This document shows positions 1,172-37,422 of a DNA stretch of 48,975 bases, piece after piece. Made by a program: the position numbers and the translations under genes. The notes beneath the pieces were generated by a model. That model saw only the letters and a program-made list of their open reading frames with translations. It was not told the DNA's origin and did not search any database. How positions within the stretch are numbered: the stretch's first letter is position 1; every line of letters begins with the position of its first letter. The stretch lies in assembly GCA_036005065.1 (NCBI GenBank), contig DASYQW010000011.1, positions 1-48,975 on the forward strand, given 5' to 3'. The stretch comes from Candidatus Methylomirabilota bacterium (GTDB lineage Bacteria > Methylomirabilota > Methylomirabilia > Rokubacteriales > DASRDR01).

Positions 1172-1201
1172 TTGACACGGGCAGCGGGCTGGGACCACAA
1201 T
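1172..1201 (+). promoter_or_regulatory. Sigma70-type promoter for riboswitch 1
   Basis: A consensus -35 box TTGACA (1172-1177) is followed 18 bases later by CACAAT (1196-1201) as a -10 box. Predicted transcription start is about 1207-1209, exactly at the first paired base of the fluoride aptamer. The agreement between promoter and aptamer position supports both calls. Confidence 0.7.
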
Positions 1202-1207
1202 TCCATC

Positions 1208-1265
1208 GGGTGATGGGGTTCGCCTCCTAACCGCTGCCCCACGGGCGGCTAATGACCCCTACCGA
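1208..1265 (+). promoter_or_regulatory. Fluoride riboswitch aptamer (crcB motif), copy 1
   Basis: The sequence follows the fluoride aptamer consensus. P1 is GGTG (1209-1212) with CGCC (1221-1224), enclosing ATGGGGTT. A joining segment ending AACCGC follows, then a GC stem-loop (1231-1248), then GGCTAATG and ACCCCTACCG. The loop GGGGT (1215-1219) can pair with ACCCC (1255-1259) to form the characteristic pseudoknot. The layout matches the Thermotoga petrophila fluoride riboswitch as I remember it; the one visible departure is CTAATG in place of CTGATG. The 3' strand also forms the 5' arm of the terminator at 1255-1281, so fluoride binding should prevent termination and switch expression on. 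The downstream genes are the CBS remnant, the DUF4129/MoxR/DUF58 operon and the enolase. Confidence 0.9.
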
Positions 1266-1284
1266 AAAGCTCGGTAGGGGTTTC
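1255..1284 (+). terminator. Intrinsic terminator, expression platform of riboswitch 1
   Basis: An 11-base-pair perfect stem (1255-1265 with 1271-1281, loop AAAGC) is followed by TTTCGTG. The 5' arm ACCCCTACCGA is also the pseudoknot strand of the aptamer, so aptamer and terminator exclude each other. A second weaker hairpin (GGCTCC/GGAGCC, 1294-1312) follows. Confidence 0.8.
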
Positions 1285-2994: not shown

Positions 2995-3947
2995 AGATCG
3001 ACGCGCTGGCCGGCCGGAGCCGGGACGTCCTGGCCACGCTCGCGCAGGTCATCGTCGGGAAAGAGGACGTGCTGGAGCGGATCCTCGCCGCGATCCTCGC
3101 CAACGGGCACATCCTGATCGAGGACTACCCGGGTCTGGCCAAGACGCTCATCGCCCAGCTCTTCGCCCAGACCCTGGACCTCGACTTCAAGCGCATCCAG
3201 TTCACGCCCGACCTGCTCCCGAGCGACATCACGGGCAGCTTCCTCTACGATCAGCGGCAGGGGCGTTTCGAGTTCCGCCGGGGCCCCGTCTTCACCCACC
3301 TGCTCCTCGCCGACGAGATCAACCGGGCGACGCCCAAGACCCAGGCGGCGCTCCTCGAGGCGATGCAGGAGGCGCAGGTCACCGTCGAAGGCGACCGGTT
3401 CCCGCTCGATCCCCCGTTCCTGGTGATCGCCACCCAGAACCCGATCGAGCTGGAAGGCACCTATCCGCTCCCCGAGGCCCAGCTCGACCGCTTCCTCATG
3501 CGCCTGGGGATCGGGTATCCGAATCCCGAGCAAGAGCGGGAGATCCTGGCCCGGCGCCGGCAGCGGCGGGAGGACGCCGCGCGCGTGCCCACCATCATCT
3601 CCCGGACGGAGCTGCTGGCCATGCAGGCCGCGCTCGAGGACGTGTTCGTGAGCGAGGCGATCGAGCGGTACATCGTGGACCTGGTCCGCGCGACGCGCGC
3701 CGACGGCCGTGTGGCGCTCGGAGCCTCGCCCCGAGGGGCACTCGCCCTGCTGAAGCTCGCGCGGGCGCAGGCGGCCCTCCGCAGTCGCGACTTCGTGACG
3801 CCCGACGACGTCAAGGAGATGGCCGTTCCGGGCCTGGCTCACCGGCTGATCCTCCGGCCCGAGCTCTGGGTCTCCAGGGTGTCCAGCGTTCAGGTGGTGA
3901 GCGATCTCCTCGGCCAGGTCCCGACCCCCAAGGCCGACCCCTCGTGA
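2991..3947 (+). CDS. MoxR-family AAA+ ATPase
   Basis: A 318-residue AAA+ ATPase. Walker A is EDYPGLAKT (the MoxR form of GxxxxGKT), Walker B is LLLADEINR, and the MoxR-typical segments FTPDLLPSDITG, EAMQEAQVTV and ATQNPIELEGTYPLPEAQLDRF follow in order. The C-terminal lid has the arginine-finger and sensor region ending LAHRLILRPE. MoxR proteins are cytosolic chaperone-like ATPases that assemble or insert metal cofactors into partner proteins, usually with a DUF58 or VWA protein. The ATG at 2991 overlaps the preceding stop, and the stop overlaps the DUF58 GTG, so the genes are coupled. The operon lies behind fluoride riboswitch 1, which would make this module fluoride-induced if transcription continues through. 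Confidence 0.93.
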   Translation: MKIDALAGRSRDVLATLAQVIVGKEDVLERILAAILANGHILIEDYPGLAKTLIAQLFAQTLDLDFKRIQFTPDLLPSDITGSFLYDQRQGRFEFRRGPVFTHLLLADEINRATPKTQAALLEAMQEAQVTVEGDRFPLDPPFLVIATQNPIELEGTYPLPEAQLDRFLMRLGIGYPNPEQEREILARRRQRREDAARVPTIISRTELLAMQAALEDVFVSEAIERYIVDLVRATRADGRVALGASPRGALALLKLARAQAALRSRDFVTPDDVKEMAVPGLAHRLILRPELWVSRVSSVQVVSDLLGQVPTPKADPS

Positions 3948-5221
3948 CCGCCCGGCGCACTGGGCTCACGGTCTCTGCCCTGAGCCTGGTCGCGCTCGCG
4001 CTCTTCCTCGCGGTCCTCGCGGGCCGGGCGGAGCTGCTCCTGGTCGCCCTGCCGCTGCTGCTCAAGCTCGTCGCCGGCGCGCGCGACCCGACGCCGCCGG
4101 CCTACGACCTGGACTACGAGGTGTCGGCCGAGCGGGTGTTCGAGGGCGATCGACTGGTCGTGACGGTGACGCTGACCGCGCGCTCGCCGGTCCCCCTCCT
4201 CGAGCTGGCGGAGCCGTTGCCCTCGTCCGTGGAGGTGGTGTCGGGCCTCAACCGAGCGGTCCTGGCGCTCGAGGCGGGCCAGCGCGGTCGATGGACCTAC
4301 GAGGTTCGCTGCCGGGAGCGCGGCCACTTCAGCCTGGGTACCGTGCACGCCCGGATCTGGGAGCGATCGGGGCTCCGGGTGCTGGAGGGCCGCCACCTCG
4401 ATCCGAAGCCCGTCAGGGTGTACCCGCGGGTGGTCCCGCTCCGCCGGGTGCCTCGCCCGCTCCGCACCCAGACCTCGGTCGGGAACTACGTCTCCCCGAC
4501 CTTCGGCGCGGGACTCGAGCCCGGGGACATCCGGCCGTTCGCCCCCGGCGATCGGGTCAAGCACGTGAACTGGCGCGCCTCCCTCCGGCTCGGCGCGCTC
4601 TACGTCACCCAGTATCAGCAGGAGCGGAACGCCGACGTCGTGCTGATGCTCGATACGCTGAGCCAGGTGGGCCTTGCCCCCGAGACCAGCCTCGACGGCT
4701 GCGTGCGGGCGGCGGCCTCGCTGGCGCGGGCGTACCTCGCCCGGAAGGACCGGGTCGGCTTCATCGAGTACGGCGGGGTGATCCGCTGGGTCAGGCCGGG
4801 CTCCGGCCCGGCCCAGCTCGAGCGGCTGCTGGATGGGCTGGTGGCCGCCCAGCCGCTCTTCACCTACATCCGGAAGGACCTGAGCCTGGTTCCCCCTCGG
4901 GTGCTCCCGCCCCAGGCCCTGGTCATCGCCCTGAGCCCGCTGCTCGACCCGCGCTTCCTCGACGCCGTGGGGGACCTCGCCGCCCGGGGCTTCGACCTCG
5001 TGGTGCTGTCGGTTTCCCCCATCGACCTCACGCGGGCCGCGCTCGCGCCGACGCCACTGACGGACCTGACCTGTCGGCTCTGGGCCCTGGAGCGGCGCGC
5101 CCAGCTTGCCGAGCTGCGTCGGCGCGGGCTCGTCGTCCTCGAGTGGGCGCCGGATGCGCCGGTCGAGCTGGCGCTCGCCTCGCTCGGGGGACACCGCCGG
5201 CGCATGGTGGTGGCCGGCTAA
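3944..5221 (+). CDS. DUF58-domain protein, partner of MoxR
   Basis: A 425-residue protein with GTG at 3944 overlapping the MoxR stop. Two closely spaced hydrophobic segments (about residues 8-27 and 28-44) anchor it in the membrane. A beta-rich region with a CRERGHFSLG segment follows, then the DUF58 motif RPFAPGDRVKHVNWRASLR at about residues 198-216 (consensus R-x-Y-x-x-G-D-x-x-R-x-x-W). The VWA-like half contains VVLMLDTLSQ and DRVGFIEYGG. DUF58 proteins accompany MoxR ATPases and resemble integrin-type metal-binding domains; the molecular job here is not known. The stop codon overlaps the following ATG as TAATG. Confidence 0.9.
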   Translation: MTARRTGLTVSALSLVALALFLAVLAGRAELLLVALPLLLKLVAGARDPTPPAYDLDYEVSAERVFEGDRLVVTVTLTARSPVPLLELAEPLPSSVEVVSGLNRAVLALEAGQRGRWTYEVRCRERGHFSLGTVHARIWERSGLRVLEGRHLDPKPVRVYPRVVPLRRVPRPLRTQTSVGNYVSPTFGAGLEPGDIRPFAPGDRVKHVNWRASLRLGALYVTQYQQERNADVVLMLDTLSQVGLAPETSLDGCVRAAASLARAYLARKDRVGFIEYGGVIRWVRPGSGPAQLERLLDGLVAAQPLFTYIRKDLSLVPPRVLPPQALVIALSPLLDPRFLDAVGDLAARGFDLVVLSVSPIDLTRAALAPTPLTDLTCRLWALERRAQLAELRRRGLVVLEWAPDAPVELALASLGGHRRRMVVAG

Positions 5222-5727: not shown

Positions 5728-6693
<966 letters not shown>

Positions 6694-6714: not shown

Positions 6715-7137
6715 CTACTTCACGATCATCACGCTGCACGGGGCGAGCCGGCTCAGGTTCTGGGTGGTGCTGCCCATGATCCGTCCCCAGATGTTCGAGT
6801 GCCCGACGAAGCCGACGACCAGGAGGTCGAAGCCGCCCTCCTTCGCGTAGGTCACGATCGTCTCGACCTCGTGGCCCGGCTTGACTAGGGTTTCCAGCTC
6901 GACGCCCTGGAGCGCGGCGAGGTCCCGGGCCTGCTTGGTCAGATTCCGGAAGAACTCCTCGAACTCGGCCTGGGCCTCCTTGACCTCGCCCACGGTGGCC
7001 GCGTAGTGCGGGAGATGCTCCATGACCGAGAGCGTGTACAGCTCGGCGTCGAAGCGCCTCGCGATTTCGATCCCGGTCCGGAGCGCCCGCCGGGAGCCCT
7101 CGGACCCGTCGTAGGCGACCAGGATCTTCCGGAACAT
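6715..7137 (-). CDS. Universal stress protein, UspA family
   Basis: A 140-residue protein, typical length for a single Usp domain. The N-terminus KILVAYDGSEGSRRAL is the first strand and nucleotide-contact loop. The C-terminal ATP-binding motif G-x2-G-x9-G-S is present as GFVGHSNIWGRIMGST. A good Shine-Dalgarno (AGGAGG) precedes the ATG, which lies 2 bases after the antiporter stop. It is probably the last gene of the operon driven from fluoride riboswitch 2. UspA genes are reported near fluoride riboswitches. The likely role is ATP-dependent stress signalling, possibly modulating the antiporter upstream. Confidence 0.92.
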   Translation of the reverse strand: MFRKILVAYDGSEGSRRALRTGIEIARRFDAELYTLSVMEHLPHYAATVGEVKEAQAEFEEFFRNLTKQARDLAALQGVELETLVKPGHEVETIVTYAKEGGFDLLVVGFVGHSNIWGRIMGSTTQNLSRLAPCSVMIVK

Positions 7138-7139
7138 GC

Positions 7140-8324
7140 CTAGCCTCCTTTCCCCTGGCGCTCCGAGTCGGGAACCAGCACCGCCCGGGCCGGGGCGCCG
7201 GCCCCGCCCTCAGACACCCGCCGGGGCTCGAACCACCGCTGGGCGATGAACGTCGGCACGATCGCGCTCAGCACGACGACGGTGACGATCACCGAGAACT
7301 GGGCCTGGTCGAAGATGCCGGCGCGGAGCCCGTACAGCGACGAGATTGTGCCGAAGGTCAACCCCGTGCTCATGAGGAGCGTCGTGAACATGGCCTCGCG
7401 CGCCGGCAGATAGCGGATCGAGAGCGGGTAGACACCGACCGTCTTGGTGACGAGCTTCACCAGGAACAGCATGCCGAGCAGCCCCAGGTTGGCCCACACG
7501 AGCCCGAGGGAGACGTTCATGCCACCCTTGAGGAAGAAGAAGGGCGTGAGGAACGCGAAGGCGACGACGCGAAAGCGGCGCTGCTCCTCCCGGTGCTGCT
7601 CGAAGACGTGGGACACCGCCAGCCCGAGGATGAAGGCGGGCAGGACCGCGTGGCTCTGGGCCACCTCGGAGAAGTACATGAGGACGAGGAGGGCCGCGAA
7701 GGCTCCCTTGATCTCCGGCTCGATGACGCGCCGTCCGTACCGGGCGAAGAACCAGCGATGGAGGGGCGGCATGATGACGATGATCGCGACGGACATCACC
7801 ACGAACACCACCAGCCACCACGTCGGCCGGATGAAGAGGAGACTCAAGGCGGCCGCCGTGCCGAAGTCGGTCACGAAGGTGGCGGCCATGAGGAGCTTGC
7901 CCATCGGATGGGCGGTGAGTCCCGTCTCGACGAGGACGGCGTAGACCACGGCCAGGGACGTCGTGGAGAGCGCGACGCCGGTGAGCTGGGATGCCGGCAG
8001 CGACCACCCGAGGACGTACTGGCAGAACACCCAGGCGCCGACGAACGGGGTGACGAACGAGATCCCGCCGATCAGGAGGCTCTCCTTGAGCTTCTCCCGC
8101 ATGAGGGCGACATCGACCTCCGCCCCCGCCAGAAACGTGAGCACGATGCCGGCGAAGCCCGCCAGGAAGTCGAGCCATGGGGTCGTGTGGAGGCCGAGGG
8201 CGTTGCCGGCGACCACGCCGAAGGCGATCTCGATGAGCGCCACCGAGAGGCCCAGCTCCACCGAGGCCATGCTGGCGAGCAGGATCAGGATGCCGGCCAC
8301 CATGGCGATGTAAGCGTTTTCCAT
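7140..8324 (-). CDS. Cation/proton antiporter, CPA2 (Kef/NapA-like) family
   Basis: A 394-residue inner-membrane protein with about 12 hydrophobic segments and no C-terminal RCK domain. Conserved CPA2 features are AFGVVAGNALGL near the N-terminus, GIVLTFLAGAEVD, GVALSTTSLAVVYAVL, then the ion-binding helix AATFVTDFGTAAALS and the late FLKGGMNVSLG region. The ion-binding position reads Thr-Asp rather than Asp-Asp (electrogenic) or Asn-Asp. GGAGA lies shortly before the ATG at 8324. It sits between the DUF6062-like gene (67-base gap) and usp (2-base gap), in an operon behind fluoride riboswitch 2. Na+/H+ antiporters are reported fluoride-riboswitch targets; the ion moved here is unknown. Confidence 0.85.
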   Translation of the reverse strand: MENAYIAMVAGILILLASMASVELGLSVALIEIAFGVVAGNALGLHTTPWLDFLAGFAGIVLTFLAGAEVDVALMREKLKESLLIGGISFVTPFVGAWVFCQYVLGWSLPASQLTGVALSTTSLAVVYAVLVETGLTAHPMGKLLMAATFVTDFGTAAALSLLFIRPTWWLVVFVVMSVAIIVIMPPLHRWFFARYGRRVIEPEIKGAFAALLVLMYFSEVAQSHAVLPAFILGLAVSHVFEQHREEQRRFRVVAFAFLTPFFFLKGGMNVSLGLVWANLGLLGMLFLVKLVTKTVGVYPLSIRYLPAREAMFTTLLMSTGLTFGTISSLYGLRAGIFDQAQFSVIVTVVVLSAIVPTFIAQRWFEPRRVSEGGAGAPARAVLVPDSERQGKGG

Positions 8325-8377: not shown

Positions 8378-8424
8378 CGGCAGCCCTTCGTTCACCGACC
8401 AGAGCCGGTCGTGAAGGGCTGCCG
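8378..8424 (-). other. Strong nested hairpin over the stop codon of the Cys-rich gene
   Basis: A 12-base perfect inverted repeat (8378-8389 with 8413-8424) encloses a second small stem (CGACC/GGTCG) and spans the stop codon at 8392-8394. No T-tract follows on the minus strand, so it is not a typical intrinsic terminator. It separates pup and the DUF6062-like gene from the antiporter and usp, and could stabilise or process the upstream part of the transcript. Confidence 0.5.
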
Positions 8425-9381
8425 ACTCGATTCGTCGCCGAGCGGTCGGGTCAGCTCCCGGAGCCGAAGCTCGAGTCGCCCTGTCTCGAAGGCCAGGGCT
8501 TCGAGGCGCTCGCGCAAGGCGTCGGCCGACTCGGCGGAGGTCGGGTTCGACTCGGGGGGACCGGGGGTTCGGGGCGCTTGATCAGTCGGCGCAGGCGTGA
8601 GGGACCGCGGGATCTCGTTTCCGAAGAGCTTCGGGTGCCCTGCCACGAAGTCGAGGGCGTTCGTCCACGAGGCGGCCTCCTCGTCGGTGAAGGGGGCGTG
8701 CTTCCGGTAATCGTGCTTGCCGATGAAGCCGGCGAGGTGCTCGGCGAGCCGGTCGAGCCTGCGGAGCGCTTGCCCGAGGAGGAGCACCGCCCCCGCGTGC
8801 CTGGGGAATCGCGCGAGCGCCAGCGTGAGGTGGGGGAGACAGACCCCGGTCGAGCGCGCGTAGGCCCGATCGAAGTCGGGGTCCTGAATGTGGTCGAGGA
8901 GCGTTTGGAGGTAGCCTGTCTCCGCGCTCCCCACCATCTCGCAGAGCGGGCATCGGCGTCGGGTGGCCCGGGCGCGCAGGAAGCCGACGGACGGGCGCCG
9001 GCCGAAGAGGCGGCGCCAGACCCCGAGGACCGGGGACTCGCGTAGCTCTCGCTGAGTGCCGTTCAGCCGGTCGCGCAGCCGGCCTAGCAGGTCTTGATAG
9101 ATGATCGCGATCCCGAGGCCGGCGTTCCCGACCTCGGTCGACATCCACGCATGCCAGGCACAGAAGCCCCACGACCGGTCGAGGATCCCCCGGGTCGCCG
9201 GGTCCGTAACCTGCTCGTAGAGGAGTCCGTCCAGCGCCCGGAACGTCGTCTCGTGGAGGCAGCGGCAGACCGGACACCGGGGCTTCCCGCAGGCGTCGAG
9301 CAGGTGGAAGTAGGCGATGAACTTGCTGGGACGGCCCCGAGAGCGCCAGCCGAGGTCCCCCAGCAGGCGGTCCAGATCCAC
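8392..9381 (-). CDS. Cys-rich protein with two CPxC...CxxH modules (DUF6062-like), coupled to pup
   Basis: A 329-residue soluble protein from a GTG start 6 bases after the pup stop; the GGAG in the last pup codons can serve as its ribosome-binding site. It contains two similar modules. The first has CPVC at about residues 35-38, then DPATRGILDRSWGFCAWHAW. The second has CPLC at about 145-148, then GVCLPH about 40 residues later. Each supplies a Cys-x2-Cys plus Cys-x2-His set, suggesting two zinc or redox sites. This agrees with my memory of DUF6062, a family without assigned function. A low-complexity Pro/Ser linker precedes a C-terminal coiled-coil-like stretch (ALRERLEALAFETGRLELRL). Its pairing with pup suggests a link to the Pup pathway, but that is inference. 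Confidence 0.7.
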   Translation of the reverse strand: MDLDRLLGDLGWRSRGRPSKFIAYFHLLDACGKPRCPVCRCLHETTFRALDGLLYEQVTDPATRGILDRSWGFCAWHAWMSTEVGNAGLGIAIIYQDLLGRLRDRLNGTQRELRESPVLGVWRRLFGRRPSVGFLRARATRRRCPLCEMVGSAETGYLQTLLDHIQDPDFDRAYARSTGVCLPHLTLALARFPRHAGAVLLLGQALRRLDRLAEHLAGFIGKHDYRKHAPFTDEEAASWTNALDFVAGHPKLFGNEIPRSLTPAPTDQAPRTPGPPESNPTSAESADALRERLEALAFETGRLELRLRELTRPLGDESSRQPFTTGSGR

Positions 9382-9387
9382 CGATCG

Positions 9388-9588
9388 TTATTCTCCGCCG
9401 CGCTGGACGTAGCTCTTGACGAACTCCTCGGCGTTCTCCTCGAGGACGCCGTCGATCTCGTCGAGCACCTTGTCGAGGCCCTTCTTGAGGGCCGCGCCCT
9501 TCTCGGCGACCTTCGGGTTGGCCGCCGGAGCCTCGTCGTGCTTCTCCGGTTCGGACGCCGCCTTCCTCTTGCGATCCTGCTCCGCCAT
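9388..9588 (-). CDS. pup: Pup, prokaryotic ubiquitin-like protein
   Basis: A 66-residue, highly charged protein ending VLEENAEEFVKSYVQRGGE, nearly the same as the actinobacterial Pup C-terminus (DVLEENAEDFVRAYVQKGGQ in mycobacteria). The N-terminal half is Lys/Glu/Ala-rich and disordered in character, then a DEID coiled-coil segment. It ends in Glu rather than Gln, so it would not need deamidation by Dop before ligation by PafA. Pup tags proteins on lysine for degradation by the bacterial 20S proteasome through the ARC/Mpa ATPase. None of dop, pafA, prcA, prcB or mpa is visible in the window. The ATG at 9588 has a strong GGAGG three bases after which CCAGACG leads to the start. A fluoride riboswitch with terminator lies 60-170 bases upstream on the same strand. 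Confidence 0.93.
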   Translation of the reverse strand: MAEQDRKRKAASEPEKHDEAPAANPKVAEKGAALKKGLDKVLDEIDGVLEENAEEFVKSYVQRGGE

Positions 9589-9644
9589 CGTCTGGCCTCC
9601 TACTGCGCCTCCTGTCGCACGTGCCGTCGGGTCGCCCCAGCCCC

Positions 9645-9680
9645 CAAACAAAAATCCGGGCCCCGGTGGGAGCCCGGAAT
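9645..9680 (-). terminator. Intrinsic terminator of riboswitch 2
   Basis: On the minus strand TCCGGGC (9678-9672) pairs with GCCCGGA (9661-9655), extended by an inner CCC/GGG pair, and is followed at once by TTTTTGTTTG. It lies between the fluoride aptamer and pup, as expected for an expression platform. Confidence 0.8.
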
Positions 9681-9697
9681 CAGAAACTCCCACCGGG
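9662..9697 (-). promoter_or_regulatory. Antiterminator stem of riboswitch 2
   Basis: On the minus strand CCCGGTGGGAG (9697-9687) pairs perfectly with CTCCCACCGGG (9672-9662), which contains the inner part of the terminator. The same CCCGGTGGGAG can instead pair over 11 positions (two G-U) with the aptamer 3' strand CTCCTACTGGG (9713-9703). With fluoride bound, that 3' strand is held in the pseudoknot and the antiterminator should form, giving expression. Confidence 0.65.
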
Positions 9698-9702
9698 CAC
9701 AA

Positions 9703-9758
9703 CCCAGTAGGAGTCATCAGCGGCCGGCCGCGGTTTAGAGGGCGAACTCCATCGCCCG
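9703..9758 (-). promoter_or_regulatory. Fluoride riboswitch aptamer (crcB motif), copy 2
   Basis: Reading the minus strand from 9757: GGGCG-ATGGAGTT-CGCCC forms P1 and its loop, then TCTAAACCGC, a GC-rich stem-loop, CTGATG and ACTCCTACTGGG. GGAGT (9750-9746) can pair with ACTCC to make the pseudoknot. Every conserved block of the fluoride aptamer is present, including the full CTGATG, so this copy fits the consensus better than copy 1. It is followed by a terminator/antiterminator pair and then pup, the DUF6062-like gene, antiporter and usp on the same strand. Fluoride should switch the operon on. Confidence 0.92.
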
Positions 9759-9774
9759 CGTCGTTGATGATCTC

Positions 9775-9805
9775 AGTATACGCCTCCCGTCAGGCGCCCG
9801 GTCAA
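9775..9805 (-). promoter_or_regulatory. Promoter for riboswitch 2 and the pup operon
   Basis: On the minus strand TTGACC (9805-9800) and TATACT (9780-9775) are separated by 19 bases (18 if GTATAC is used). The predicted start is about 9768, some ten bases before the aptamer. It lies just after the cytochrome c stop at 9815, so pup has its own promoter and read-through from the sulfite genes would still meet the riboswitch terminator. Confidence 0.6.
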
Positions 9806-32856: not shown

Positions 32857-33828
<972 letters not shown>

Positions 33829-33887
33829 ACCCGGGGGCCGGGCCGCCCACCGAGCCGGGTGGCGGGCCGACGACTGAGGACGACGGG

Positions 33888-34529
33888 ATGCGACGGCTCT
33901 CGGCCCGGATCGCGCTGAAGAGCGGCGTGTGGGCCGCCTGCCTCACGCCGCTCGCGCTCGTCGTCTACTGGACGGTCGCCGACGACCTCGGCATCAACCC
34001 GATCGAGGCGGTCACCCGGTGGCTGGGCGTCTGGACGCTCCGGCTGCTCCTGCTGAGCCTCACCATGACCCCGCTGCGCCTCCTGTTCGGCCTGTCGTGG
34101 CCGATCACGCTGCGCCGCCTGCTCGGGCTCTTCGCCTTCTTCTACGCGACGCTGCACTTCGGGGTCTGGATCGTCGTGGACCACTTCTTCGACTGGCCGA
34201 CGATGGGGGCCGACATCGCCAAGCGGCCCTACATCATGGCCGGCCTGGGGGCCCTCGTCATGCTCGTCCCGCTGGCCGCCACGTCCACGGCCGGAATGGT
34301 GAAGCGACTCGGCGCCCCGGCCTGGCGGCGCCTCCACCGGCTCGCCTACCTGGCCGCGGTCCTGGCCGTCCTCCACTTCCTGTGGCTGGCGAAGGTCGGA
34401 CGGGTCACCCCCTTCCTCTATGCCGCGTGGCTTGCGCTCGTCCTCGGGATCCGGCTGTGGGCCGCCGCCCGGCGGATCGTCGCGCGGCGCCGCCGGCGCC
34501 GGGCGGAGGCGGACGCCGTCCCGGCCTGA
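33888..34529 (+). CDS. msrQ: Haem-binding membrane subunit MsrQ
   Basis: A 213-residue inner-membrane cytochrome b-type protein with about six helices. Haem-ligand histidines are expected in FFYATLHFGVWIV and WRRLHRLAYLAAVLAVLHF. It delivers quinone- or flavin-derived electrons to MsrP, the gene just upstream. GGATG precedes residues MRRLSARIALKSGVW. Confidence 0.92.
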   Translation: MRRLSARIALKSGVWAACLTPLALVVYWTVADDLGINPIEAVTRWLGVWTLRLLLLSLTMTPLRLLFGLSWPITLRRLLGLFAFFYATLHFGVWIVVDHFFDWPTMGADIAKRPYIMAGLGALVMLVPLAATSTAGMVKRLGAPAWRRLHRLAYLAAVLAVLHFLWLAKVGRVTPFLYAAWLALVLGIRLWAAARRIVARRRRRRAEADAVPA

Positions 34530-34570
34530 CTCCGAGCAGTGACTCCCCGGAGGCGATGCAGGAGGCAGAC

Positions 34571-35002
34571 ATGAACATCGCGAGCATCCTCTCAACCAAG
34601 GGCATCAAGGTCTTCACGGTCCGGCCGGAGCAGTCGATCCGGCAGGCGCTCGCGCTGCTCGCCGAGCACAACGTGGGGGCGCTGGTCGTCGTGGACGAGA
34701 CCAACCGGCCCGTCGGGATCGTCTCGGAGCGCGACATCGTCCGGGAGGCCGCCCGGAACGAGCAGCTCTTCTCCCGCATCGTCGGGGAGATCATGACCAG
34801 GGATCTCGTGGTCGGAGTGCCGCAGGACGACCTGAAGTCGGTCGGCCACACCATGACCGAGAAGCGGATCCGGCACCTGCCGGTGGTCGACCAGGGGAAG
34901 CTCGTCGGCATCGTCTCCATCGGGGACATCGTGAAGACGCAGCGGGACCAGTACGAAGGCGAGGTCGACACGCTGCAGACCCAGATCCTCGAGGAGCACT
35001 GA
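34571..35002 (+). CDS. Protein with a pair of CBS domains
   Basis: A 143-residue protein made of two CBS domains (residues about 8-65 and 75-130): VRPEQSIRQALALLAEHNVGALVVV and VVGVPQDDLKSVGHTM... with HLPVVDQGKLVGIVSIGD. Such free CBS pairs bind adenine nucleotides and regulate partner proteins. AGGAGGCA precedes ATG 34571. The stop TGA overlaps the next ATG, linking it to the ferredoxin reductase, which it may regulate. It is intact, unlike the CBS remnant at 1388. Confidence 0.92.
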   Translation: MNIASILSTKGIKVFTVRPEQSIRQALALLAEHNVGALVVVDETNRPVGIVSERDIVREAARNEQLFSRIVGEIMTRDLVVGVPQDDLKSVGHTMTEKRIRHLPVVDQGKLVGIVSIGDIVKTQRDQYEGEVDTLQTQILEEH

Positions 35003-36402
35003 TGGCGGCCCCCGGCACCGAGGCCGACCCGCTCCGCGTCGCCATCGTCGGGGCCGGGCCGACCGGGTTCTATGCCGCGGAGCAGCTGTTCAAGCCGCCC
35101 GGGCTCGTCGTTCGGCTCGACATGTTCGACCGCGTGCCGACGCCCTACGGGCTGGTCCGGGCCGGCGTGGCGCCCGATCACCAGAAGATCAAGTCGGTGA
35201 CGGTCGCCTTCGACCGGATCGCGGCCAATCCCCGCTTCCGGTTCTTCGGGTCCGTCGAGCTCGGCAAGCACCTGACCCGGGACGACCTGCGCGACCACTA
35301 CCATCAGATCCTCTACACGACCGGGGCCCAGACCGATCGGCGGATGGGCATCCCGGGTGAAGATCTCTCGGGGAGCCACGCCGCGACCGAGTTCGTCGCC
35401 TGGTACAACGGCCACCCCGACTACCGGGACTGCCAGTTCGACCTGAGCCAGGAGCGCGCGGCGGTGGTCGGCGTGGGCAACGTCGCCATCGACGTCGCCC
35501 GCATCCTCTGCCGCTCCCCGGAAGAGCTGGAGGCCACCGACATCGGCGAGCACGCCCTCGAGGCCCTGCGCCGCAGCCGGATCCGGGAGGTGTACCTGCT
35601 CGGGCGCCGGGGACCCGCTCAGGCGGCCTTCACCAACCCCGAGCTCAAAGAGCTCGGCGAGCTGACGGCGGCCGACATCGTGGCGCTCCCCGAGGAGGTC
35701 GAGCTGGATCCGCTCACCCGGGCCGAGCTCGAGCGCACCCAGGACCGGATCACGCTCAAGAAGGTGGAGATCCTGCAGGGCTACGCCGCGCGCAAGCCGG
35801 CCGGCAAGCCCCGCCGGCTGATCCTGCGCTTCCTGGTGTCGCCGGCCGAGCTCACCGGCGACGAGGCCGGCCGCGTCGTGGCCATGCGCCTCGTCCGCAA
35901 CGAGCTCTTCACCACTCCGGCCGGGACGTTACAGGCGCGGCCGACGGAGCGGTTCGAGATCCTGCCGGTCGGCCTCGTCTTCCGGTCGGTCGGCTACCGG
36001 GGAGTGCCGCTGCCCGGCGTGCCGTTCAACGAGAAGTGGGGCGTGATCCTGAACGAGAAGGGACGGGTGATCGACCCCGAGACGCAGGCGCCCGTGGTCG
36101 GCGAGTACACGGCTGGCTGGATCAAGCGGGGCCCGACCGGCGTCATCGGCACCAACAAGCCGGACGCGGCCGAGACGGTGGCCTGCATGCTGGAGGATCT
36201 GGCCCGCGGGGCGATCCTCCGGCCGGCCCATCCCGAGCCCGCCGCCGTCGAGGCCCTCGTCCGGCAGCGGCAGCCGCACTACTTCTCGTACGCGGACTGG
36301 CGCCGGCTGAACGAGCTGGAGGTCGCCCGGGGCCAGCCGGCCGGACGGCCCCGGATCAAGTTCACGCGCGTCGAGGAGATGCTGGCCGCGCTGGGCCGCT
36401 AG
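35002..36402 (+). CDS. fprA: Ferredoxin/adrenodoxin-type NADP+ reductase (FprA)
   Basis: A 466-residue flavoprotein. FAD motif VAIVGAGPTGFYAAEQL, the FprA-specific VPTPYGLVRAGVAPDHQKIK, NADPH motif VVGVGNVAIDVAR and the C-terminal GYTAGWIKRGPTGVIGTNK-type region are all present in order. It moves electrons between NADPH and ferredoxin. The ATG overlaps the CBS stop. A hairpin repeat follows the stop directly. Confidence 0.94.
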   Translation: MAAPGTEADPLRVAIVGAGPTGFYAAEQLFKPPGLVVRLDMFDRVPTPYGLVRAGVAPDHQKIKSVTVAFDRIAANPRFRFFGSVELGKHLTRDDLRDHYHQILYTTGAQTDRRMGIPGEDLSGSHAATEFVAWYNGHPDYRDCQFDLSQERAAVVGVGNVAIDVARILCRSPEELEATDIGEHALEALRRSRIREVYLLGRRGPAQAAFTNPELKELGELTAADIVALPEEVELDPLTRAELERTQDRITLKKVEILQGYAARKPAGKPRRLILRFLVSPAELTGDEAGRVVAMRLVRNELFTTPAGTLQARPTERFEILPVGLVFRSVGYRGVPLPGVPFNEKWGVILNEKGRVIDPETQAPVVGEYTAGWIKRGPTGVIGTNKPDAAETVACMLEDLARGAILRPAHPEPAAVEALVRQRQPHYFSYADWRRLNELEVARGQPAGRPRIKFTRVEEMLAALGR

Positions 36403-36480
36403 ATCTTTCGGGGGGGTCTCGGAAGACCCCCCGATGCCCCCCCGTCGTGGCGGCGGCGAAGCCGCCGCTCGGAGCATTCC
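36403..36480 (+). repeat. Composite 3'-end repeat, copy B
   Basis: Directly after the fprA stop: a 9-base-pair hairpin (36411-36419 with 36424-36432), GATGCCCCCCC, then GCGGCGGC-GAA-GCCGCCGC (36450-36468) and CTCGGAGCATTCCTCG. The order matches copies A, C and D in gene sense. The 130 bases that follow up to 36609 hold nothing I recognise. Confidence 0.75.
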
Positions 36481-36609
36481 TCGATGTACCACGCGCTCGG
36501 TGGTCGGCGCCGGGTTACCCCGGCGCACCGATGGGCGGGTGCCGGGCGCCTACGGCGGCTGGCCCAAGCTCGCGCTAAACCGCGCGTGATGGCTGCGTGG
36601 TGCCCCGCA

Positions 36610-37422
36610 CTACCAGCGGATGTCGCGCTGGACAGGCAGCCGGTGCTGGTCCTGGCGGGCCTCGATCGGCCAGCTCCGGAACTCCTCCAGCCAGATGAGC
36701 ATCTCCTTCATGATGATCTCGAGGATCCGGCGGCCTTTCTCGGCGGTGGCCTTCGTCGGGTCGCCGTGGACGCCCGTCTTGGTCCAGCGGCCCCAGAAGT
36801 CGTTGAAGCGGACGGCCGTGGTGCTGTCCGAGGTCATCGTCCGGCCGACCCGGTCGTTGTCGGCTACCGCCTTGTCGAGCTGGACGCGCTCCCCGGCGAA
36901 GTGCAGGTAGAGCGAGGTCTCCCACTCGTCGGCGTGGGCGTATACCCCGGTCTCCAGGACCTTCAGGCTCTCGTCCCGCCCCATGTTGTAGTAGCCGAAG
37001 GCGCAGCAGAGGGCGGGGGTCTCGAGCACGGTCCGGCGCGCGATCAGGTCCACCATCGGCATGTTGGAGCCGTGGCCGTTGACGACCGCGATTCGCTTGA
37101 AGCCGTGATAGGCGACGCTCTTGGTCACGTCCACGCAGAAGTCGATGAAGTGCTGCGGCTCGACGTGGATGGTGCCCGGGAAATCGAAGTGGTGCATGTT
37201 GAGGCCGTAGGGAATCCCGGGCAGCACCAGCACCGCGCCGGGAGCCCGGCGGGCCAGCTCGCGACAGACGGACTCGGCCAGGAACAGGTCGGTGTCCAGC
37301 GGCAGGTGAGCTCCGTGTTGCTCGGTGGAGCCGGTCGGCAGGATGACGACCTTTTCCCGCTCGATGGCGTCGTTCATCTCGGGCCAGGTGAGCTTGTTGT
37401 ACTCCCACATGTCACGGGCCAC
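36610..37422 (-). CDS. Creatininase-family amidohydrolase
   Basis: A 270-residue protein. The metal-binding signature is LPTGSTEQHGAHLPLDTD (Glu, His, Asp), with VVNGHGSN and HADEWETSLYL further on. Members hydrolyse creatinine or act on modified formamides and mycofactocin/F420-type peptides. GTG 37422 is preferred because the GGGAGGGAG sits at the right distance; ATG 37410 is an alternative. It starts 12 bases after the alcohol dehydrogenase stop, so the two form an operon. Confidence 0.88.
   Translation of the reverse strand: MARDMWEYNKLTWPEMNDAIEREKVVILPTGSTEQHGAHLPLDTDLFLAESVCRELARRAPGAVLVLPGIPYGLNMHHFDFPGTIHVEPQHFIDFCVDVTKSVAYHGFKRIAVVNGHGSNMPMVDLIARRTVLETPALCCAFGYYNMGRDESLKVLETGVYAHADEWETSLYLHFAGERVQLDKAVADNDRVGRTMTSDSTTAVRFNDFWGRWTKTGVHGDPTKATAEKGRRILEIIMKEMLIWLEEFRSWPIEARQDQHRLPVQRDIRW

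Follow-up and report, generated by a model that had tools for sequence, protein, structure and literature searches.

A second pup gene at the head of a fluoride-riboswitch operon in Methylomirabilota

What is a gene for Pup, the bacterial degradation tag, doing directly behind a riboswitch for fluoride? The question is raised by the window, that is, the whole stretch of 48,975 nucleotides from a Candidatus Methylomirabilota bacterium (contig DASYQW010000011.1) analysed here. A preliminary description made from the sequence alone had read a promoter, a fluoride aptamer, an antiterminator/terminator pair and pup in this order, and had concluded that the tagging system is under direct control of fluoride. 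The features on which the argument rests are the following.

9775-9805 (-), sigma-70-like promoter, read in sequence: TTGACC (9805-9800), a 19-nt spacer and TATACT (9780-9775)
9701-9765 (-), fluoride riboswitch aptamer, RF01734 match at full length (1-64)
9686-9714 (-), alternative hairpin, 9714-9702 with 9698-9686, which without ligand takes up the aptamer 3' strand (growing transcripts folded to minimum energy)
9662-9697 (-), antiterminator, 9697-9687 paired with 9672-9662 in the ligand-bound state (constrained folding)
9645-9678 (-), intrinsic terminator, 10 pairs (hairpin 9678-9655) followed by the T-rich tail TTTTTGTTTG (folding and terminator scan)
9596-9601 (-), Shine-Dalgarno sequence AGGAGG of pup, 7 nt before the ATG, read in sequence
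9388-9588 (-), pup, the genome's second copy, 66 aa with C-terminus ...EENAEEFVKSYVQRGGE (PF05639, TIGR03687)
8392-9381 (-), DUF6062 protein, 329 aa (PF19538, 54 bits), its first base 6 nt past the pup stop
7140-8324 (-), CPA2-type cation/H+ antiporter (PF00999, 126.9 bits; TIGR00932, 87.6 bits, below its cut-off)
6715-7137 (-), universal stress protein, Usp (PF00582, 112.3 bits)

The leader bears out what had been read from it. The promoter elements proposed at 9805-9775 are present, and a TTGACA/TATAAT-like pair (at least 9/12) stands just upstream of 29 of the 34 fluoride riboswitches in the phylum and the window's own genome; the promoter scan tool reported none here, the 19-nt spacer exceeding its limit by one base. 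The aptamer, given at first as 9758-9703, scores 54.4 bits (E 2e-12) against a gathering score of 34 bits for RF01734. Rfam scoring of the whole window returned two matches, both fluoride riboswitches; the other (1200-1268 (+), 46.7 bits), absent from the preliminary description, has its own terminator, and the same-strand genes downstream of it include one for a DUF4129 protein. For the terminator hairpin at 9678-9655, 0.1 would be expected in shuffled sequence. Folding of growing ligand-free transcripts gave the alternative hairpin together with the terminator, and withholding the aptamer 3' strand gave the 9697-9687/9672-9662 pairing with the terminator excluded. As these two states are mutually exclusive, the antiterminator/terminator pair placed at 9697-9645 is predicted to act as an ON switch, and the leader to be, by folding, the usual fluoride attenuator with its expression platform coupled to the aptamer.

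The gene behind this leader is a complete pup, running from an ATG at 9588 to a stop at 9388, encoding GGE at the C-terminus and matching PF05639 at 78.3 bits (cut-off 27) and TIGR03687 at 63.5 bits (cut-off 41.45). Its start is set at 9588 because the AGGAGG and homology point there; the same two observations rule out a 109-aa Pup starting from an ATG inside the aptamer (9717). That pup is next after the aptamer with no gene between them, as first described, was confirmed. The genome to which the window belongs (G000) amounts to 5.6 Mb in a draft of 419 contigs, and its contamination is estimated at 4.4%. A more typical Pup lies on its contig C365 behind dcd, the site at which many relatives also have theirs, and contig C290 carries ARC-dop-prcB-prcA-pafA, so that genes for the ATPase, depupylase, ligase and 20S proteasome are all present. 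This makes the window Pup a second copy, and not the main one of the cell. No fluoride riboswitch was found near the dcd-linked Pup or the ARC-dop-prcBA-pafA operon in the stretches read. Fluoride control of the whole tagging system is thus too strong a claim because only the second, divergent Pup gene is controlled, and to that gene the earlier conclusion has to be narrowed. Divergent second Pups also occur in four other genomes (G042, G091, G057 and G041; L078, L080, L081 and L082), at unrelated sites without fluoride riboswitches.

With other Pups the window Pup shares no more than 63% identity, and in a Pup tree, which has too few columns to place it, it stands apart from the C365 Pup. The final 18 residues of the two are the same. 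Over the last 20 codons the two genes differ by five synonymous and two non-synonymous codon differences, a pattern with P 0.006 against random substitution. GC3 of the window pup is 0.92, and its non-synonymous differences to other Pups (0.22-0.31) compare with 0.10-0.27 for the dcd-linked copy. The window copy is an old paralog, distinct from the dcd-linked Pup; it has diverged yet is still constrained, and it evolves faster than the dcd-linked copy.

Close behind pup on the same strand follow the genes for DUF6062, the antiporter and Usp, which were missing from the preliminary description. With an antiporter and Usp behind one riboswitch, and the same module in relatives, pup heads a fluoride-stress operon of known type. 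Among riboswitch-associated genes, antiporters form the second commonest class, and a proven fluoride operon includes Usp (PMC11139923, PMC5533749). DUF6062 recurs behind fluoride riboswitches in several phyla (window 8392-9381; L123, L127, L145 and others). Its CxxC and CxxH pairs are invariant in the alignments and likely form two metal sites; its predicted model is all-helical (pLDDT 83.5), a fold search against solved structures gave no match with E under 0.001, and no publication on the family was found in the open-access literature. An enolase copy (window 5744-6693 (+)) lacks most of the N-terminal domain and is split over two frames, and a longer one without breaks sits at G000:C274; the window copy has the look of a surplus gene in decay, for an enzyme that fluoride inhibits, close to the fluoride genes.

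Does the arrangement extend beyond one genome? Searches for Pup (found in 83/95), the fluoride riboswitch (35/95) and DUF6062 covered 95 genomes of the phylum, and the commonest genes after the riboswitch were those for an antiporter or DUF6062. A full-length fluoride-linked pup was seen in the window only, hence in one draft genome. In four other genera (G081, G083, G047 and G067), pup remnants persist under the same riboswitch, between it and the same downstream genes, and the conservation in relatives on which the preliminary description depended is thereby found in eroded form. In three of them (G081, G083 and G047) the remnants are tail ORFs of 12-20 aa with C-termini NYVQRGGE or SYVQRGGE, whose stops overlap the start of DUF6062 (GTGA or ATGA). 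The G081 tail ORF, MVAEQNAEEFVKNYVQRGGE, precedes the second of two DUF6062 genes; those of G083 (MDLLVEAELKRKNYVQRGGE) and G047 (MAVKSYVQRGGE) lie between the riboswitch and DUF6062. The G083 ORF resembles at its N-terminus (MDLLVQAELK) the first of the two DUF6062 genes in G081 and at its C-terminus Pup, as an in-frame deletion in a G081-like ancestor would give. The order in G067 is riboswitch, pup remnant (DALDEIDSLLEENAEEFVKSYVQRTGTPSS), the coiled tail of DUF6062, identified by comparison with the DUF6062 alignment, and antiporter; here, with DUF6062 lost, the Pup tail has degenerated to YVQRTGTPSS. A DNA pattern for the Pup C-terminus gave 49 matches over the 95 genomes and its reversed control 0. 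Of the 49, all but the three tail ORFs were full-length Pups, and each of these three lies under a fluoride riboswitch. Ordinary full-length Pup is encoded elsewhere in all four of these genomes.

Beyond these loci, pup is absent from most fluoride-DUF6062 operons, and DUF6062 also occurs in organisms without Pup. Outside the order, no pup was seen at the fluoride-DUF6062 loci of G015, G018, G001 and G006, and no Pup was found anywhere in the genomes G015 and G018. Outside the phylum, the one scan made, of named genomes that have DUF6062, showed riboswitch-DUF6062 loci for Thermotogae, Hydrogenedentota and Desulfarculaceae, none of them with Pup beside it; Actinomycetota and Nitrospirota lay beyond its reach. 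Entotheonella has both Pup and DUF6062, at separate places. Among other neighbours of the phylum's fluoride riboswitches, a gene for a dynamin-like GTPase, named from its sequence without a family-library search, recurs downstream (L001, L044, L051, L058, L115 and L117) and also follows the third riboswitch of G000 (G000:C269:913-979). Contig G080:C6 has four fluoride riboswitches in 4.3 kb (33047-37357; locus L072), with the proteasome operon lying about 24 kb away. In a G080 fluoride operon on this contig, DUF6062 is followed, with an ATGA overlap, by a 135-aa N-terminal piece of PafA (3749-4156 (-) of L072), 92% identical in DNA over 370 bases to the genome's own pafA, with differences that by eye appear mostly synonymous.

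Chance co-location of riboswitch and pup is ruled out, because five genera share the order although both elements are few per genome, most genomes having a single Pup and no more than one or two fluoride riboswitches. As relatives keep shrunken pup remains at the same spot, the link is both old and real. In a DUF6062 tree the loci with traces of pup (window, G081b, G083 and G047) are scattered within one well-supported clade of the order, which also holds the trace-free loci G063, G069, G074 and G080. On this tree, the simplest reading would be a single ancestral riboswitch-pup-DUF6062 arrangement that was repeatedly lost, and the ancestor of the order probably had a fluoride-controlled pup; several separate gains of pup at fluoride-DUF6062 loci are a possible alternative.

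As to function, we lean on balance towards pup leading a stress operon that is induced by fluoride and supplies extra, conjugation-ready Pup. Without fluoride, RNA polymerase would halt at the terminator just beyond the aptamer; with fluoride, the aptamer would keep its 3' strand, the antiterminator would form and the operon would be transcribed. Because the Pup so made already ends in GGE, deamidation by Dop would be unnecessary, and PafA encoded elsewhere in the genome could conjugate it, raising protein turnover at a time when metal and phosphate enzymes are inhibited by fluoride. The sequence itself shows the switch, the gene, the gene order, the paralogy and the remains in relatives; expression on fluoride, conjugation and any benefit under fluoride we infer. 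This explanation is preferred because the aptamer and Pup both lie far above their family cut-offs, the two-state attenuator is borne out by folding, ARC, Dop, PrcB, PrcA, PafA and a second Pup after dcd are all encoded in the genome, the window pup is still constrained, and the riboswitch-pup-DUF6062-antiporter order recurs, eroded, in relatives. Against it count the single draft genome behind the full-length form, the faster evolution of the window pup than of the dcd-linked copy, the many fluoride-DUF6062 operons without pup and the occurrence of DUF6062 where Pup is absent. A further point is the loss of the Pup coil, the region bound by the proteasome ATPase, in every other genus with traces. 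The wider proposal that the order evolved ion-sensing control of a degradation tag, with fluoride binding to RNA releasing a pulse of Pup that redirects the proteasome under fluoride stress, is put forward as tentative.

The main rival to a supply of extra Pup makes the Pup product irrelevant: an ancestor's pup was caught before DUF6062 and was kept as a translated frame ending on the DUF6062 start. We consider this account less likely than the supply of Pup; in it, the frame would reach the DUF6062 start by the GTGA or ATGA overlap, with purine-rich QRGGE codons serving as a ribosome-binding site. Three different tail ORFs retain an ATG, the frame and a stop overlapping DUF6062 though the middle of pup is gone, and it is in G067, without DUF6062, that the tail is degenerate. 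Moreover, Dop showed no activity on a 20-residue Pup derivative (PMC3474595), and the tails of 12-20 aa do not exceed that length. Tagging of fluoride-damaged proteins, the function first suggested, is therefore unlikely as one shared by these loci, and possible for the window copy. The window pup, however, is of full length, with a 6-nt gap between its stop and the DUF6062 start, and no change affects its last 18 residues although synonymous differences are present, which exceeds the needs of a ribosome-binding site. A coupling role thus fits the tail ORFs better than the full-length copy; it and the supply of spare Pup can both hold, in different lineages.

It is also conceivable, if improbable, that the copy or the tail peptide is dedicated to its own operon and has DUF6062 or the antiporter as its target, for instance tagging them so that they are removed once fluoride falls. 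The remains always adjoin DUF6062 or its remains, and the PafA fragment in the G080 operon would suit such a role; however, DUF6062 stands under fluoride riboswitches in G015 and G018, in which no Pup was found, and the tail peptides are probably too short as substrates for Dop (PMC3474595). An artefact, be it a chance aptamer, a false Pup or a chimeric contig, might be suspected in a draft of so many contigs with some estimated contamination. We regard it as very improbable in view of both family scores, the same eroded junction in four other genera, and a tetranucleotide make-up of the contig that is nearer to the genome's other contigs than to relatives.

If extra Pup is indeed supplied on fluoride, this would be the first known ligand-controlled Pup gene. 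A pup behind a fluoride riboswitch offers one ion, one RNA and one readout for whether Pup supply can steer bacterial proteasomal degradation. The eroded tails are in any case a visible record of a coding gene shrinking to a short leader ORF with the junction to the next gene kept. The preliminary description knew of no fluoride-controlled Pup, and no publication joining the fluoride riboswitch and pupylation was found in the open-access literature. As far as that literature shows, riboswitch and Pup are each known and their combination is new. This novelty gains from the recurrence among relatives and is limited by there being just one full-length example.

Compared with known systems, the leader resembles other fluoride riboswitches (crcB RNA, RF01734) with transcription attenuation in its full aptamer, promoter and exclusive antiterminator and terminator, and differs in that the first controlled gene is pup. 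In operons for fluoride resistance that carry usp, an antiporter gene or an enolase gene, as in E. cloacae FRM (PMC5533749; reviewed in PMC11139923), an antiporter and Usp are likewise under the riboswitch, whereas here pup and DUF6062 lead, and crcB, ppaC and an intact enolase are absent. The core Pup-proteasome genes of mycobacteria are without known transcriptional control (PMC12288473). The window Pup is like the usual Pup (PF05639) in its length, its coil, its C-terminal GGE and the cognate ARC, Dop, PrcBA and PafA in the genome; unlike it, the window copy is a second, divergent one that lies apart from the proteasome operon and behind a riboswitch that senses an ion.
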